A stretch of DNA of 64,000 nucleotides, taken from Hydra vulgaris. Lineage: Eukaryota > Cnidaria > Hydrozoa > Anthoathecata > Hydridae. The stretch covers positions 22,799,001-22,863,000 of the forward strand of contig NC_088933.1 in assembly GCF_038396675.1 (NCBI RefSeq). Reading direction: 5' to 3'. Of this stretch, positions 6,461-62,465 are shown in pieces; position 1 is the stretch's first letter; the number at the start of each line of letters is the position of its first letter. Under the pieces are notes generated by a model. The model was not told the DNA's origin, ran no database searches, and saw only the letters and a list, made by a program, of their open reading frames with translations. The position numbers and the translations under genes were made by a program.

Positions 6461-36155
<29,695 letters not shown>

Positions 36156-51232: not shown

Positions 51233-53224
51233 TTAGTGTTTTAGCAAGTTAAGAACTTGTTCAGACAAGGGGTTTCCATTGAAAGATTTGTGTTTTATGA
51301 AGTTGATCGACGAAATTTCTGGATCAGTTCTGATCAGCAAATATTGAAATTGATTTTTCATTACATTGAGTCCGGAAATTTTGCATGAATGGTTTAACCT
51401 AGCATGTCTTAACACTTTATTTTGGGCCTCCTGAGCCTCCTCAGAATAATAACCAATGGGTAGTTCTAGATTTTCAGCAATTGCAGGTCCATGAACTAGA
51501 AGTTTGTGAAGAGTTGGAGGCATTCTGTACCAATCATAGTTATTAACTATAAAGGCTAGAGTCTCATTGCAGTATTGGCTAAATCTATCAATATCTAGGT
51601 CATACCCTGAACAAACAGCTTGAAGAACTGTCCTCACCCGGAGAATCAACTCAACCTGAACTCCTGTTGTGTCAGCAAAAGCCTCACCATGCATGAATGC
51701 TCTTCGGGCAGTATTACCATCATTTGTATTCCCAAACCCAGTTTTTGGAACATCTACCAGTAAACTAAGTTCTGCTCTAAACCTATCTTGAATAGTTTTT
51801 TTTCTAGCTTGAACAAGTACCTTATCTTCGGCTAACCTGATATCTGTCCTTGGAATAGTCATCTCCAGTCTGTAGCCTAAATGAAGTATGTATTCAAAAC
51901 ATTTAATCCAACAATGCAATGATGATAAACCAAGGGAAATAGCATCATCATTCACAGGTTTAATTTTAACTAGATCTAGCTTGTTCATTTCTGATGGTTT
52001 CGCACCACAAATATTGCAGCTTGCAGATGATTTTGTGTTGGTTAAGGCATTAACCACTTTGCCATCAAACATGGTTAGTTCAACATGAGATTTTATATTG
52101 ATACTGACTTTTCTTCCATCCGCAAGTGTAATAATCTCAACATAATCTTCCAAATCAGCCATCTGATCACGAATGTATTTTTCTTCTGACTTGCTAAGTT
52201 CTGTGGTTTCTTTTTTGTATTGAAGACGAAGAGGTCTGCAAAAATGAGAACTATTTGGTTTCTTATTCTCCCAAATTGTTTTACTTTCTACACTTAACTT
52301 AAGAGGTACAATTGCAGTTTGGAAATGGGATTCTTCATTTTTTTTAGCCTCCTCAATGTCTGTGTTATCATACCTTTGTTTATACAAACTTTGGCTTGAT
52401 GCACCATCAAACCCTGCTTTTAGAATAAAACTACCATTGAGCACATTTTGATCTGTATCCAGAGTTTTTAAATTGTCTTCACTTAATACAATAACTTTTT
52501 TAAGAGTATGATTCACCATGGACTGTAATTTACTTTCAGCAGAAGTTTCAGTTACAACAAGGTCCTCTGGATAACAATTACTTTTTTCCTTGAATAGAGC
52601 ATGTAATGTTGGATAAATATTGGCATTGTGTTTGATTGAGGAGTTTCTTATCATTTGATACTGATCATCACTGAGATCACAATTAACTTTTAATGAAAGT
52701 GCTTCTTTCTCACTCATCATTATCGGTTCCTTGCTGTCCATACTTTTTCTGATTTCAGATGCTTTCTGAATAGACTCTTTAACCACATAAGCAAAGTCTT
52801 GTAAGTCACCTGATGATTTTGCACTTTTAACAGCAGCCAGAGCTAAAACCTCTGGATCATGCGCAGATAATCCAACAACTCTTGTTCGCTTACTTCTCTC
52901 TCCTAGATCTTTCCAATTTTTCTTTGGTCGCCCTCCACTGAACTCTTTTCTGCTTACATTGTCAGCTTTCATAACAATTTGAATTTCGGTTTGCAACCAT
53001 TTCTTTTCTTTCATTAACAGCCTGTCATATGTTTTGTTTACTGCAATCCACTTAGCTTTCAATTTTATCACCAAAATTCGGATTTTTTCTGTTAATTTTT
53101 CACTATGCACTTTTTCATTATCCAAACCTTCTGATATCAAAATTTCCTCTTAAAGGAGGCTCACAATATCCTTGTTAGTTATACAAATTTCTCTTACTTT
53201 GGGAATCAAGTCTATTATTTTCAT
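51233..53224 (-). CDS. Transib transposase (RAG1 core homologue)
   Basis: An open frame of 635 codons runs 53140 to 51233. A start ATG at 53222-53224 is in the same frame but separated by one TAA (53150-53152). Numbering from 53140: GFDGASSQSLYKQ at 243-255 (Asp245), HFCRPLRLQYKKET at 299-312, MFDGKVVNALT at 357-367 (Asp359), and CNICGAKPSEMN at 375-386 (zinc-type CxxC). GFGNTNDGNTARRAF is at 468-482, MPPTLHKLLVHGP at 540-552, and YYSEEAQEAQNK at 564-575 (the candidate catalytic Glu lies in it). These match the Transib/RAG1 core blocks around RAG1 Asp600, Asp708 and Glu962. The protein would bind the CACAGTG ends and cut by a hairpin mechanism. Upstream of Asp245 lies a basic GGRPKKNWKDL patch. 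All catalytic positions are kept. The only visible lesion is the TAA near the start, which a downstream start (Met43) could bypass. Confidence 0.95.

Positions 53225-54630: not shown

Positions 54631-54704
<74 letters not shown>
54630..54704. repeat. (TA)n microsatellite
   Basis: About 75 bp of TA dinucleotide, directly abutting the Tc1 left end. It may be the insertion site or have grown from the TA target. Confidence 0.95.
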
Positions 54705-54707
<3 letters not shown>

Positions 54708-54995
54708 TATTGGACAAGACATTTGCAACCAACATCGAACAATGTTAAAAAGTGTTCCTAATTTTACATGTCTTAAAAACGAAACGAACTATACTAACAC
54801 AGCAAACAGTTCAGGAGTCTGGAATCATAGCATGCATTGACATGAGCAATCAGCTAACAGGTGACAGCACACAGGCAGAATTTCGTTGACAAGTGCCATT
54901 TTGCAGCGGACAAAACAAATGCAACTTTTTTGGTTTGTTTCATTTTCTTAAGTCTGGTCCGTGTCAACGTCACGGAAATTTTTTAATAATTTAAA

Positions 54996-55118
54996 GGAAG
55001 TATCCAGAAGTTTTCAGAAGTTTCCAGAAGAAGCATCTGGAAGCGTTTAGTAGCATCCAGAAATATCCAGAAACATTCAGAAGCATCTAGACGCATCCAG
55101 ATGCTTCCAGAAGCATCG
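54996..55118 (+). promoter_or_regulatory. heat-shock-element-like array
   Basis: 54996-55030 parses into seven contiguous 5-bp units: gGAAg tATCc aGAAg tTTTc aGAAg tTTCc aGAAg. 55054-55118 parses into thirteen more alternating nGAAn and nATCn/nTTCn units, most within one mismatch. Alternating inverted nGAAn pentamers in a strict 5-bp register are the binding-site grammar of heat shock factor. The array ends about 50 bp upstream of a TATA box. HSF binding is inferred, not shown. Confidence 0.6.
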
Positions 55119-55170
55119 AAAAGAAGCATCTAGAATCGTCCAGAACAGGTTCACACAAGGTTCATTTTAC

Positions 55171-55207
55171 TATATAAGAGACATGTAAATCGACATGTAA
55201 TTCAGTC
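55171..55207 (+). promoter_or_regulatory. core promoter: TATA box and initiator
   Basis: TATATAAG starts at 55171 and TCAGTC (initiator-like, A at 55204) follows about 33 bp later, the canonical spacing. The transcript would have a roughly 240-nt leader, with a possible short GT-AG intron (about 55391-55455, AAG|GTAAAT...TTTAAG) before the transposase ATG. Confidence 0.55.
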
Positions 55208-55444
55208 AGTATATGGAAGTCAATCAGTCAGTATTATCAAGACAGTTTATCGAAGTGAGTTTTATCAAAGTGTTTTATCGAAGAATATCAATACAAGAAG
55301 TGAAATACAACAAGTGTTTCATTACTTCAATACAGTCCACATCCAACCAAGACGTTGTGTTCCACAGAGCATTATTGTATCATCACAAGGTAAATGTAAC
55401 ACGGTAAGCCTTGAGAAGCGTGATTATTTATTTTTATTATTTTT

Positions 55445-55999
55445 ATGACTTTAAGTGCAAAAATGGCTACCGACAGTCTTGGATTGGAACTAAGAAAGAA
55501 AATTATTGGCGATTACGTAAGTGGAATGTCACAAAAAAGTATTTGTGATAAATATCGCGTGAAAAAATGGACCGTATCAAGACTATGTTCCAAATATCGT
55601 TCTACGGGGAAGTTGGCAGCAGATAACAAAACCGGAAGACCGCGTTCCACCACTTCTAGTGAGGATTCTATGATCGTCAGATCCGTCAAGAAGGATCCCT
55701 GGATATCATCAGTTGAGATACAAAAGCAATTAGAGCTGCCTGTATCGGACCGAACAATCAGACGACGTGCTGTTGAAGCCGGATTGTTTTCTCGACGCCC
55801 TGCAAAGAAACCGGTGATTTCACTAAAAAACCAGAAGAAAAGACTCCTGTTTGCTACATCTCATATTGACTGGAATGTGCAGAAATGGCGAACTGTCCTG
55901 TTCAGTAATGAATCGAAGTTCAACATCATTGGGAGCGATGGCATTTGCCGTGTACGTCAACCGGCCGGAAAACGCCTCGATTTACGTTACTGCACTCCA
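55445..55999 (+). pseudogene. Tc1 transposase, N-terminal half
   Basis: ATGs at 55445 and 55463; the second has the better context (AAAAATGGC). The frame gives two helix-turn-helix domains (IIGDYVSGMSQKSICDKYRV; VEIQKQLELPVSDRTIRRRA), the GRPR linker motif, and the start of the DDE domain (WRTVLFSNESKFNI). The first catalytic Asp (normally FSDESKF) is Asn here. It continues RVRQPAGKRLDLRYCTP and is cut exactly there by the insertion. In intact relatives TVKHGG follows, and that resumes at 61729. Confidence 0.9.
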
Positions 56000-57498
56000 A
56001 GTCGGCATATCTAGTATTGTAAATACTCGGAGTATTGATCACGTATAACATACCGCCGTTGATACCAGAAAAATGCGCATTTAGTTTTAAGTTTCGAATT
56101 CGAGTTCAATACCACTTATTTATCAAAAATACGTATTATTTAATGTTTGATCAAAATCGGATACGATATCGTACCCGATCTCGATCAAATATCAACCTAT
56201 AACGGAAAAACGAAAATCTTTGCTTTAAAGCGCATGCTTAAACTGAAATTGTAAAAGCAAAATTTAAATAAGAAAGTTTTCATTTGAAATATTTAGTAAA
56301 AAGTTTGTCTGGAATGAAAAGGAATAGTCAGGAATACATGAAAAGTTGTATGAAGAGATATCGTTCTGCTAAAGCAGTATCGCATATCTGCAATGCAGTT
56401 ACAGTACTTTTTTGTACTAAAAAAGTTATTAAAACTTTATCATAAAAATATTTAATACTACTTTTAAATTTATTTTGTTTTATTCTTATTTTTTATTATA
56501 TTCTTATTTTCTTATTATCTTTATTTTATTTAAGTCCTAAATTAATATAATTCAAATATATTATAAATCCTATCATTTCATACCTTGCTTATTCTATTAT
56601 GTTGATTATTATTTTATTAACATTTCTGTTATGCTATTACCTTTTTTTTGTACTGTTTTAAAAAATTTAGAAAAATAAATTCAAATTTCAAGCCAACACT
56701 GACATTTTATTGTTGCTAAACGTTAAATTTTGTTATAAGGATTGCAGTTCTTCTATCTGTTTTTTGCTCTTTATTCAATAAGTATTTGATTTAAATTAAA
56801 TATAATTATAATTTGATATTTTATTACGAGATATATGTTTTTACATATATATATATTCATATATATGAATTTTTTTAGATTTTTTCATGTTATTTTTTAA
56901 TTTTTTGTTCGCGCAATTCAAGTTATATATGTTTATAGTTTGCATATATGTTTATATTATGTTCAAAGTTAAAAAGTTTTTAATAAACATATGTATGTGG
57001 TAATATGTGTTATGTAATTGTTTTATAAATGTGTCATTAAAATAGTATAAAATGTACCTATTGTGAATATAAATATAATATGAGGTTTTTGTATATGTTA
57101 CATAAAGTTGAATAAATGTATTGTGTTTTATAGTTATTATGTATGTTTATATTATGTTGTTTTCATGTTTTCAAAGTGTGCGTCTTGGCAAACGTGTTGA
57201 GCAAGATTTTGCGTAAAGTTGTTATTTATGTTACTAATGTTGTTACATTTGGCTTACCTTAATGTTGGTGTCCATTGTTAAAAGTTATAAGTGGTTTTAT
57301 TATTGAAACTCACTGCTTTTAATCATTCACTAAAAGCCACTCAAGAAAAATCATTTTGCCATATATACATTTTGTTTATATCTCAATTTGAATTTTTAGA
57401 ACCATGAAGTACAAACATGATTTGTTTTCTAAAAGCTAACATGAAATAACAATATTTAACAACTACTACTCTCTTATCATGACATCTTATCTCTATCA

Positions 57499-58641
57499 CA
57501 GGCTTGGTCAGGAAGGCGTGCGATTTCAAGTCTTTATATGACCACGCAAATAATATTTTGTTTTGACGATTTAACCACGGTTTTTAACAAATGCGCTGAA
57601 ATAATTAGTTTTTAATTACGTCGAAAATAAATAATTTCGATACGTTTATCTTTACTAACGTTTTTTATTAGCAAAACGCTTTTAAGTAAAGTAGCTAATG
57701 ATTTTAATTAAAGTATCATTGAAAGTTGTATAATTTTTTATTTATATTATTTAATTATATAAGATTTTTTTATAAGTAAAACAAACGTAAAAATTGAAAA
57801 AAAAAAAATGATTTTATAAGCGACGACTTTAAACAGCGAAGGTCTCTTTATATTAGAATTTATATTAGAATTTAACTTTATATTATAATAACTTTATATT
57901 AGAATCATTAAAGTTTTTACTGAGAAGAAGAAAAAAAAGACAAACTTTTTTGAAAGCCGTTTGAATTAAATAACTTTGATCTTTACTTACGTATTTATAT
58001 TATTGAAACGCATTTAAATAAAGTAACAAATCACATTTTTTATATTTACATAAGTATTTTTTATTATAAATGTTTTTAAATAAAAAAAAATTATAACAAT
58101 TTTTTAAATAAACGATTTAATTATTTTTACTTTTTTTACTTTTTGTGCGAAGAATTGTTAAGAATCTTTTTTTAAACTTTTAAATGTACGCGTTTATTAA
58201 ACAATTGTCTGTTGTAAGTTGTTACTTTATTTAAAAAAGGTTTAGCATAATATGAAATTATAAAAACATTAGTAACGATAAACGATTCAAAGTTATTTAT
58301 TCCAAACGTAATTTAGATAATCTTATCGTTATAGTTTATTATTTTTTTTAGTTAAGTTTTAATTTTATTTTTGCAATTTTAGTTTTATGCAAGTTATTTT
58401 TATTTTGTTTTTCGTTATTTTTTGGACGAAAATTTATTCGCTTCTTTAACGTTTTTTTTAAGTTTCTTTATAGGTTGAGTTGGTTGAGGTCCTAGTTGAG
58501 TTAAGATTTTTATAGCGCGTTTTTAAAACGCATACAAATTTTTAAAACTTATTAACAGCCGTGGTCAAGTTAAGTAAAATCAAATAGAATTTGCGTGGTC
58601 ATATTATGACGTGAAATTGCACGCCTTCCTGGCCAAGCCTG
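57499..58641. mobile_element. 1.1-kb TIR element with 6-bp target duplication
   Basis: The ends CAGGCTTGGTCAGGAAGGCG and, reverse-complemented, CAGGCTTGGCCAGGAAGGCG continue as imperfect inverted repeats for about 100 bp (shared TGACCACGCAAAT). CTATCA directly flanks both sides (57493-57498 and 58642-58647). There is no coding capacity. CAGG termini suggest hAT, but a 6-bp duplication is short for that group. Confidence 0.88.
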
Positions 58642-59280
58642 CTATCAGATATATTGATTTTCGATTCATATTTGATTTTTTTCTTTGTATTTACTTATCA
58701 ATTACATTTTTTCATTTCAGATTTATCATATCATGGATTTATGCGATATAAAAGAACAAATGTATGTAAATTTTTATGAATTTTTTCTAGGCTTTTCTAA
58801 ATGTGTTTCTTATTCACATTTTATTTTACAAGCAAGGTCTGCAAGCAAATTTGAGCTGAAATTTTTTTTTAGCTTTTAAGGAGAATTGGCGTTATTCTTT
58901 GTTTTATTTAATTTGTTTAAATATAGTAGTTCTAAAAAATAAATGTTTGTTTGTTCTTGGTTTTTTACTTATCTGTTTTCAGATTCTTATAAACTAGGCA
59001 ACTCAGCTAAGCAAGTTTTGTTTTATTTTTAAGTGCTATTGGAAAGAGCTGAAAGTTATTTTTTAGAGTGATTGAAAAGAACTGAAGTGTTTTTTAGTTA
59101 CTTCACACGGTGTAAGTGATACTGGTTTGAGTAAGTTTACTGATTTGTTTTATTTTATATTGGATTTATTTTATATTTGATATATATTATATTAGATATA
59201 TATTTTGTGTATTTAACATGAAAAACTGCCTGTAATTTGTTGACACTAAAGTTTATAAACTTAAATCTGCCTATAATTCA

Positions 59281-59500
<220 letters not shown>

Positions 59501-60624
59501 CTTTAGAGTAAAATATACTGACTGACATTGCTTCAATATTTTATACAAGATTGTGCATTTATTATTTTTGTTCATTAAGGTAAAAATAATTTTGTGCATT
59601 GTAGATTCTTTGTTAAATTAAAAATAATTGATGTAAATAAATATTGTTTAATATTTTTGATAAACGACTTATGTATGTAAACGAATAAAAAGATATGGAT
59701 TTCAATAAATCTTAAGTTTAAATAAAGTCTTTGATTAGAAAAGATCACAATTTGTAAGATTCTTTTATGTTCATTTATTCAATTGTAACAATAGTAAGAT
59801 AACTGGTAATATGATAAAAGTGAAATTGAAATAGATATTATTAAGCTCAACAAAGTTATTAATGTAAAATGCTAATAGGAAACTTTAAAATAGTTGTCAC
59901 ATGAAAAAAAGAGATCTAGGCAGGATGAAATTAATCGTTGTTGAAATGTAAGAAATGTAACTCGAAGTGCAGAAAACTTACTTGACAGAATTCAGTGTCA
60001 AGCAGTGTTAATGTCTGTTAATTTGATTTTACTTTAGACACTTCAGAACAAAGCAAAGTATGAGTTTAACTATTTATAGATAGTAACAATTAACACTTTT
60101 AAATCTAAATAATTTTTTTTTTTTTTATAATTTCTATCATAATTGTGTTCTTTTTTTCATTTTTTTTTTAGTTTGTCTATCCTTTGTCATCTTTTGATTA
60201 GTTAGCTAACTGTTGAAACATGGTTTTAATTTTTGTAAATTTAGTATGATATGAAATTTACTCTATTAATCATTAGTCAACAGTTAGAGAGAAGCTGGAG
60301 CTTAATTAAGAAATGCTGGAAATTAGCTTTTAATCAAGGTAAAAGTAATTTTGTTTACTGGTAACATAATAAAACCAGTTACTAGTATTTATTCCGTGCT
60401 TTTTTACATTTGTTAACATGCTGCTTTGGAAACACTTTCTTTCTCTCTCACTCTAAGATGAGTGGGAGATTTAATAAAACTTATGTAATTACTGAGCTCT
60501 TACGTATTTCTTAAAACCACAAATGATAATTACCATTTATAAGAAATTTTTAAATGCCAGCGTTACTATAGTAACAATGTATACATTGTCTAGCCTTTTT
60601 ATAATCTTTTTTAATCATTCTGTA

Positions 60625-60906
60625 GACAGAATATATGAATCTGTCATTTCGAAAAGGACATAAGTCCAAAACTTTTAGCAGTTAGTTTATAAGTTTGAAT
60701 TAAAAATTTCTGTATGATTTATGTTTTTTTTATAAAAAATAAAAAATACATAAATTATATACGTTCTTTATTTATCTACTTCTATGTTTAATTTCTTTAG
60801 CAACCTAGACATTATTTTAATAAAAATCATATTTTTGTTGATTTTGAAAAGTTTTAGTAAATGGGCTTGTGCCCTTTTCGAAATGACAGGTTCATATATT
60901 TTCTGT
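60625..60906. mobile_element. foldback MITE, about 280 bp
   Basis: The left arm ACAGAATATATGAATCTGTC followed by ATTTCGAAAAGGACA is mirrored on the right by ACAGAAAATATATGAACCTG and TCATTTCGAAAAGGGCA (reverse complement). About 40 bp of each arm pair. No coding sequence; the target duplication is unclear. Confidence 0.75.
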
Positions 60907-61294
60907 TATTATTATCCTAATTCTACTAACAATAAAATGCAAATAGTACTTTTGTAATTAAAAATTGTAATTTTTTTTTCATGTCTTTTTTTAGGTATTT
61001 GCAGGCTTTCCTTGACTTTCCTTTTCTGGTACTTGTGTTGTGACAGATTTTAAAAAGAACTCAACTGATGTTAATGCGGTCTTTATGTCGTTACCTATAA
61101 GCAATAACGTTGCTGATACGGAGTCAAAGTTAAAATATTTATAGATAAATTTGTATTTAATATTTTAGATAATATATCAAGTTATTAATGTGTTTTTATT
61201 GTTATCAATGGTTTAATAACTCATAACCCGTATTACGGATTGCTTACTGCTAGTCATTATCATTATGTTATGAACTCATTAGTTAATAAAATTG

Positions 61295-61700
61295 TATTGA
61301 ATATTCTCTGGTTATCGTGTTTTATACGTGTTTAAATGCGAGTTTGATACTCAGTAGGCGTCGTATTGTATACCTGTCTTTATACGCATCTGATGTCTAT
61401 TTATAATGCGCGTTTGACACGATAAAATGGCTAACATATATTCGTAAATAATGCGTATTCTGGAAAGTTTTAAATGCGCATGTAATACCAGGAAAATATC
61501 GTATTGAATATTCTCTGGTTATCGTATTTTATACGTGTTTACAAAAGTTTCAAATGCGAGTCTGATACCCTGTAGGCGTCGTATTGTATACCTGTCTTTA
61601 TACGCATCTAATGCGTATTTCTAATGCGTGTTCGATACGATAAAATGGCTAGCATACATACCACATCGATACGTATTTAAACGAGTTTCTAATGCGCATT
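61295..61700. repeat. 207-bp tandem repeat, about 1.9 copies
   Basis: TATTGAATATTCTCTGG recurs at 61295 and 61502, and both are followed by the same ordered words (TTTATACGTGTTTA, GTAGGCGTCGTATTGTATAC, CGATAAAATGGCTA). The copies differ by roughly 10-15 percent. It sits just inside the right terminus of the 5.7-kb insertion. Confidence 0.85.
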
Positions 61701-61728
61701 TACAACTAAATTTGCCGACTGGGATAAG

Positions 61729-62209
61729 ACCGTGAAGCATGGTGGAGGCAATGTAATGGTCTGGGGGTGTTTTTCTGCTAACGGTCCAGGTCCAATACAT
61801 CGAAACGATGGAATAATGGACCGTTTCATGTATAAAAATGTCCTGACAGATGTTATGTTACCTCATGCTGAATGGAATATGCCAATAAAATGGGTTTTTC
61901 AGCAAGACATCCGAAACACACTGCAAAAGTAGTCAAGCAGTGGTTTCAAGACAACCACCTATCGGTGATGAATTGGCCGCCTCAATCTATGGATCTCAAC
62001 CCTATCGAGAGATAGGGTTGAGATCCCTGTGGGAGATCGTCAACCGCAGAATTAATCGTGAAGGTGTTCGTAATAAGGATCAACTTTTTGAACAAATCCA
62101 AAAGGCCTGGGCAGCGATTCCACAAAGTTTCATTCATCACCTGATCGAATCTATGCCTCGAAGATGCAAGGCTATGATCGACAACAAAGGATTCGCCACG
62201 AAATATTGA
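61729..62209 (+). pseudogene. Tc1 transposase, C-terminal half
   Basis: Resumes TVKHGGGNVMVWGCFSANGP in the frame left at 55999. It continues [17 protein letters not shown] (second catalytic Asp), where a deletion turns the usual QDNDPKHTAK into a frameshift. It then recovers LNPIE and LWEIVNRRINREGVRNKDQL, ending MIDNKGFATKY and TGA. An inverted duplication between PIE and LWEIV (61991-62026) adds bases and disrupts the frame next to the catalytic Glu. The copy is dead. Confidence 0.88.
61991..62026. repeat. 16-bp snap-back inverted duplication in the Tc1 transposase
   Basis: 61991-62006 and 62011-62026 are exact reverse complements around GAGA. The left arm is the native DLNPI coding sequence. 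The right arm is its mirror copy, inserted before LWEIV. Confidence 0.9.
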
Positions 62210-62465
62210 TAGCGAAATACAGCTTGGTCAACATTTTGTCGAGTTGCACTTGTTTTGTTCAGAAGGAAATCAACTTTTTTTAATACTTTTGATTAATTTA
62301 TTAATTTTCGTGAACAAATAATGAACTTTGTGATGAATAAAACTTGAAGACTTTGTCTCTAAACACTTACATAGTTATTTCTCTAAATTGAAAAAAATGC
62401 AGCACTTTTATATAAAGAAACTAAATTAGCATTATTTGGTTGCACTCGTTTTGTCCGATACTGTA

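Follow-up and report, generated by a model that had tools for sequence, protein, structure and literature searches.

A tandem array of HSE-like pentamers upstream of the predicted transposase TATA box in a Hydra Tc1 family: a candidate HSF-type promoter

Does the run of short inverted pentamers in the 5' region of a Tc1 transposon of Hydra vulgaris act as a promoter region for the host heat shock factor (HSF), or is it a short-unit tandem repeat that resembles HSF sites by coincidence? The locus lies in a 64,000-nucleotide, AT-rich stretch of the genome (hereafter the window; GC content 28.9%). An earlier note on this DNA had described twenty pentamers in two runs (54996-55030 and 55054-55118), alternating in exact register in the manner of HSF sites and followed by a TATA box and an initiator. 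Coordinates of the features discussed below are collected in Table 1.

The assignment of the element to Tc1, made in the same note, was borne out by several lines of evidence. The 5' part of its transposase has a Pfam domain match, three related proteins (P0001-P0003) match both transposase halves, with 78-93% identity across the segments aligned by tblastn, and the element ends can be aligned as terminal inverted repeats flanked on both sides by TA (54703-54704 and 62464-62465), which lie within a TA-rich tract. Each inverted end carries two direct repeats with the same spacing on both sides, an arrangement that, together with the TA target, we take to be the IR/DR layout by name. The direct-repeat consensus was written from these four sites themselves, and at up to 4 mismatches no further site was found in the 64-kb window. 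In IR/DR-type Tc1 elements such as Sleeping Beauty there are two direct repeats per inverted end, about 200 bp apart, and the transposase is of the DD34E type; the Hydra element resembles them in both respects. The family member P0002 has the invariant residues D128, D218 and E253, presumably the catalytic ones, with the 34 residues of a D-D-34-E spacing between the last two. Eight of the 33 proteins found are at least 90% identical over the aligned part, and one of these, P0002, represents 229 sequences. The copy in the window is dead: it cannot act for itself because its transposase gene is split and damaged. Its first catalytic position is N, where all 16 aligned relatives have D (D128), and a nested insertion separates the two halves of the gene. 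Within this insertion, 61288-61438 and 61493-61656 are 85% alike.

Table 1. Features of the Tc1 element and its HSE-like array. Positions refer to the window; mismatches are counted against the consensus of the four direct repeats.
Feature	Position	Strand	Evidence or remark
Tc1/mariner element, IR/DR type	54705-62463	+	Inverted-repeat alignment of ends; tblastn of transposase halves
Left outer direct repeat, probable transposase site	54712-54729	+	3 mismatches to consensus
Left inner direct repeat	54908-54925	+	1 mismatch to consensus; 196 bp from outer
HSE-like array block 1, 7 pentamers	54996-55030	+	Contains perfect HSE trimer GAAnnTTCnnGAA at 55017
HSE-like array block 2, 19 pentamers, several degraded	55029-55123	+	Phase shifted relative to block 1
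HSE-like array block 3, 5 pentamers	55122-55146	+	Pentamer scan
Predicted TATA box TATATAAG	55171-55178	+	24 bp past array end
Initiator-like TCAGTC	55202-55207	+	At initiator distance from TATATAAG
Transposase 5' part	55445-55993	+	Pfam HTH_Tnp_Tc3_2 4e-19; tblastn; start ATG 55445 or 55463
Nested insertion, about 5.7 kb, own inverted ends AGTCGGCA...	55994-61725 (approximate junctions)		tblastn and end alignment
Transposase 3' part	61726-62206	+	tblastn pieces; two frame changes, near 61908 and 62009-62018
Right inner direct repeat	62243-62260	-	1 mismatch to consensus
Right outer direct repeat	62439-62456	-	1 mismatch to consensus; 196 bp from inner

The window holds other open frames and repeats. 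A second, distinct and decayed Tc1-like transposase lies in two pieces on the minus strand (12593-13583), with helix-turn-helix matches, a DDE_3 match just below the curated cut-off (3.6e-06) and a weak tblastn match to Tc1 relatives. The segments 9611-10750 and 20644-21833 are inverted copies about 89% identical and, judged by eye, a reverse-transcriptase element. An open frame of 638 aa (51236-53149, minus strand) is without a Pfam match at 0.001 and may, again by eye, encode a transposon protein, and a host-like open frame at 28464-29051 has an aminotransferase class V match (1.1e-17) and is possibly an exon.

The twenty pentamers are indeed present in the two runs described, although the array proved wider: admitting two degraded pentamers (CGTTT and AGTAG) takes the start of the second run back to 55029, and a third block follows, so that the whole comprises 31 pentamers with small overlaps. 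All three blocks are built from a common 10-bp tandem unit, AGAAG CATCC, and they are mutually out of phase. Pentamer alternation is thus a true property of the array, but the word exact was too strong. The forward units have an exact GAA in 13 of 17 cases; the reverse units have an exact TTC in only 2 of 14 and ATC in 8 of 14, with the middle T in all 14 and the C in 11. If an HSE is defined as at least three contiguous alternating nGAAn/nTTCn pentamers with the G kept, the array contains a perfect trimer at 55017; a gap-type site lies at 55007. Step-type sites (GAA-n7-GAA-n7-GAA) lie at 54997, 55007, 55060 and 55123, and the window has one more elsewhere, at 56312. Under a strict rule, which demands of every pentamer the G plus one or both of the other core bases, the array has runs of 8, 5 and 5 pentamers.

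The likeness to HSF sites was scored as a chain, using HSF weights that did not come from a database matrix. On these weights the best chain in the window reached 61.2 bits at 55029-55118; with the array excised the best chain in the window was 15.0 bits, and the maximum over 60 dinucleotide shuffles was 22.9 bits. The longest strict-rule run (8 pentamers, 55079-55118) was matched by none of 300 shuffles, one of which reached 7. Step-type matches numbered five in the window versus 0.85 in shuffles, and runs of at least 4 pentamers 7 versus 4.9. Perfect HSE trimers are at chance expectation, with one in 64 kb versus a shuffle mean of 0.9.

Such comparisons bear on the explanation that the array is a plain 10-bp minisatellite, which arose in one ancestral leader and was spread by transposition, with its HSE likeness coincidental and without a regulatory role. 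A loose rule (at least 5 of 6 core bases and both Gs) is passed by 3.2% of random 10-bp units, which counts in favour of coincidence. Permutation of the ten unit columns, which preserves the tandem period, the composition and the copy-to-copy variation, argues the other way: none of 5000 permutations reached the observed value of 104.3 on the HSF weights described above, and the best was 95.2. This result and the chain scores agree with the HSF-like site grammar that the earlier note had proposed. The coincidence explanation is also opposed by the building of three out-of-phase blocks from one unit and by the position of the array (54996-55146), between the left IR/DR arm and the predicted TATA box and initiator. 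We consider it unlikely, though it is the most probable of the alternatives.

The unit itself raises a second alternative, namely that the array is an enhancer for some other host factor, with a site near AGAAGCATCC, and directs tissue or stage expression instead of a heat response. The real unit has ATC more often than TTC in its reverse half, and a promoter position would suit any activator. Against this, the observed column order topped all 5000 permutations, which were scored for the HSF pattern alone. Binding of another factor in this manner seems improbable to us. A third alternative would make the array an accessory site that serves the left end by binding transposase or by bending the DNA. 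Its 10-bp period is close to one helical turn and it adjoins the left IR/DR arm, whereas the unit is unlike the four direct repeats by eye. A comparable pentamer run was looked for at the right element end and none was found; since the right end is without an array, we think a transposase-binding role very improbable.

The geometry of a promoter is seen just downstream, as claimed, in the TATA box and the initiator-like motif. The pair pattern TATATAAG plus TCAGTC occurs once in the window versus 0.2 expected in both-strand shuffles, where the pattern did not come from a database and was picked after seeing the pair. Less than 400 bp separate the array from the start site downstream of it, which is itself predicted from the TATA box and initiator. 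The 740-bp 5' region had been called unusual in itself; it is less odd than that, as the left IR/DR arm accounts for about 220 bp of it and the leader past the predicted start for about 250 nt.

Whether the array belongs to this copy or to its family was examined through sibling leaders, which were found because the predicted protein P0004 fuses a translation of the array to transposase. No sibling DNA copies were found within the 64-kb window, nor in the scanned viral or genome contigs, from which records of the own genome are possibly absent. Predicted proteins were therefore back-translated and aligned to the window. Searches, one of which scored the best 7991 candidates by shared words, together listed 11 distinct proteins, and eight (P0004 and P0034-P0040) were kept as translations of sibling leaders, so that siblings number at least eight. 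The database protein P0035 is named Hydra vulgaris and closely matches the sequence upstream of the transposase. The other three, P0041-P0043, were dropped as sibling leaders and taken to be unrelated; they are short proteins with repeats like QKPPEASRSL, which 10-bp units resembling CCTCCAGAAG would encode, perhaps in a similar minisatellite elsewhere that has no TTC/ATC half. This approach reveals sibling leaders only where gene prediction retained an open frame; four of them, P0036-P0039, start at an ATG inside the array.

Seven of the eight siblings have indels in the array relative to the window. We counted 10 of them, seven of 10 bp and three of 20 bp; these are per-copy counts against the window and are not independent, several siblings having an indel at a common place, such as the one after 55020 in P0004 and P0034. 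The remaining sibling, P0040, begins at 55111 and has no array indels. Outside the array the lengths differ by 1, 2, 4, 7, 11, 12, 14, 21 and 80 bp; in P0004, P0035 and P0039 some of these differences may reflect predicted splice junctions instead of indels. Because all 10 counted array indels are of 10 or 20 bp, the register is kept across siblings. All seven leaders tested (P0004 and P0034-P0039) are compatible with in-register HSE runs, the longest having 21 contiguous pentamers (P0036), where compatible is a generous criterion given codon degeneracy. Residue shuffles gave a run at least as long as the longest one observed in 14 of 500 cases for P0004, in 4 of 500 for P0034 and in 0 of 500 for the other five. 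The TATA box is compatible and free of indels in six of the seven sibling leaders that cover TATATAAG, and in the alignment the P0035 leader has 12 bp fewer between the TATA box and the initiator. This suggests that the array is a family feature in which, as far as the siblings indicate, the unit number drifts and the register does not.

The same indels can be turned to the side of the plain minisatellite, as all of them are whole units, and 10-bp slippage alone would yield whole-unit indels and a kept register. Substitutions were compared between core and spacer positions. Among the eight sibling leaders 10 of 85 core positions provably differ versus 5 of 53 spacer positions, a protein-level comparison of low power; counted by cells, the figures are 27 of 484 and 11 of 282. 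The core bases thus have no extra conservation among siblings, again as a plain minisatellite would have it, and the array differs at more positions than its flanks (15 of 138 versus 11 of 210). The first A of GAA differs at none of 27 positions. Five G positions differ: at 55014, 55047 and 55077 the window copy is off the HSE base and at least one sibling keeps it, and at 55004 and 55117 siblings depart from it, 55004 being the third base of the ATG where four of the predicted proteins begin. Within the array of the window copy, G and the first A deviate in 5 of 62 cases versus 15 of 62 for spacers (p=0.026, with a grouping that was picked post hoc), and all three core bases in 12 of 93 versus the same 15 of 62, which is non-significant (p=0.085). 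As the core is as variable as the spacers among siblings, selection on the HSE core is not established; the array data allow selection without proving it. The register conservation that the earlier note had named as a test is therefore seen in the indels, but the array is also a drifting minisatellite whose core is no more conserved than its spacers. A further point for the coincidence explanation is that a comparable 10-bp repeat, with CTC as its reverse unit, seems to underlie P0041-P0043, which we take as unrelated.

Considering these results together, we hold it to be fairly probable that the array is a family-wide HSF-type promoter of the transposase, kept as a minisatellite that preserves the register, and from this we infer heat induction. 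On this reading the array would serve the transposase gene of a Hydra Tc1 family of the IR/DR type as its upstream promoter region. When the host is stressed, its heat shock factor would bind as trimers to some 30 pentamers of the nGAAn type just before the TATA box, the proposed target sites being one perfect HSE, four step-type sites and many imperfect ones. Transcription would start near 55204, and more transposase would be made and more transposition would follow. The number of units would drift between copies via 10-bp slippage, with site register and helical face preserved. Binding by HSF, induction by heat, the position of the start and any effect on transposition are all predictions of this scheme. 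Step-type HSEs are described as functional with low activation, HSF1 as preferring canonical sites, and the guanines as the most conserved bases (PMC4552642); position 2 (G) of nGAAn is described as critical and the third and fourth positions as of lesser importance, and the usual upstream distance of HSEs is given as up to 400 bp from the transcription start (PMC2871787). A 90-minute heat shock at 33 C was reported to induce HSP70 in H. vulgaris (PMC2908143). P0035 counts against the promoter reading: its coding sequence passes through the array, and therefore the array may be transcribed, something not required of a pure promoter, and its leader has the shortened distance between TATA box and initiator noted above.

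We know of no HSE array in the leader of an IR/DR-type Tc1 element like Sleeping Beauty. The Arabidopsis LTR retrotransposon ONSEN/COPIA78, which carries few HSEs, has a promoter that uses the host heat shock factor; the proposed Hydra promoter is like it in placing an element promoter on the host factor and unlike it in that ONSEN/COPIA78 is a plant LTR retrotransposon. Transposons bearing HSEs are already known, and heat-shock activation of transposons via host machinery is said to have been shown in plants and animals (PMC12810828). Caenorhabditis Helitrons (Garrigues et al. 2019, PMC6927752) are likewise DNA transposons with HSEs, some of them consistent with tandem, overlapping HSEs, and HSF-1 binding was reported in that study. 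Their HSEs are described as diversifying the response of host genes, whereas the Hydra array stands directly upstream of the TATA box of its own transposase and its binding is predicted. The LTR retrotransposons TCN12 and TCN3 of Cryptococcus likewise have putative HSEs in their own LTR, which were proposed as the explanation of mobilization at 37 C (PMC12810828); they have one or two such elements, in contrast to the tandem array in Hydra. A C. elegans survey discusses Tc1/mariner elements with sites of other factors, and HSEs in Helitrons (PMC8896005), and a sea anemone preprint mentions that transposon-related genes rise in heat-stressed coral (PMC13104882). Among the matches listed from the open-licence literature, judged by title and opening of the abstract, no paper described a Tc1 transposon whose own transposase promoter carries an HSE array, and nothing of the kind appeared for Hydra; the arrangement is without a match to that extent.

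It is quite possible, although somewhat less likely than not, that a self-adjusting HSE minisatellite has placed the transposase of the whole Hydra Tc1 family under the host heat shock factor. One inverted pentamer pair would be gained or lost with every 10-bp slip while the register stayed intact, copies would differ in how strongly stress wakes them, and insertions would scatter ready-made heat-shock enhancers over the genome. If this is true, a cut-and-paste transposon family sets the timing of its transposition by the stress response of its host, and the unit-by-unit variation among its copies is a built-in promoter series. The heat-shock protein response was reported to vary between Hydra species (H. 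attenuata versus H. oligactis); the family would therefore offer a natural test of whether transposon activity follows the host stress system. Such a family could also seed heat-shock enhancers near genes.
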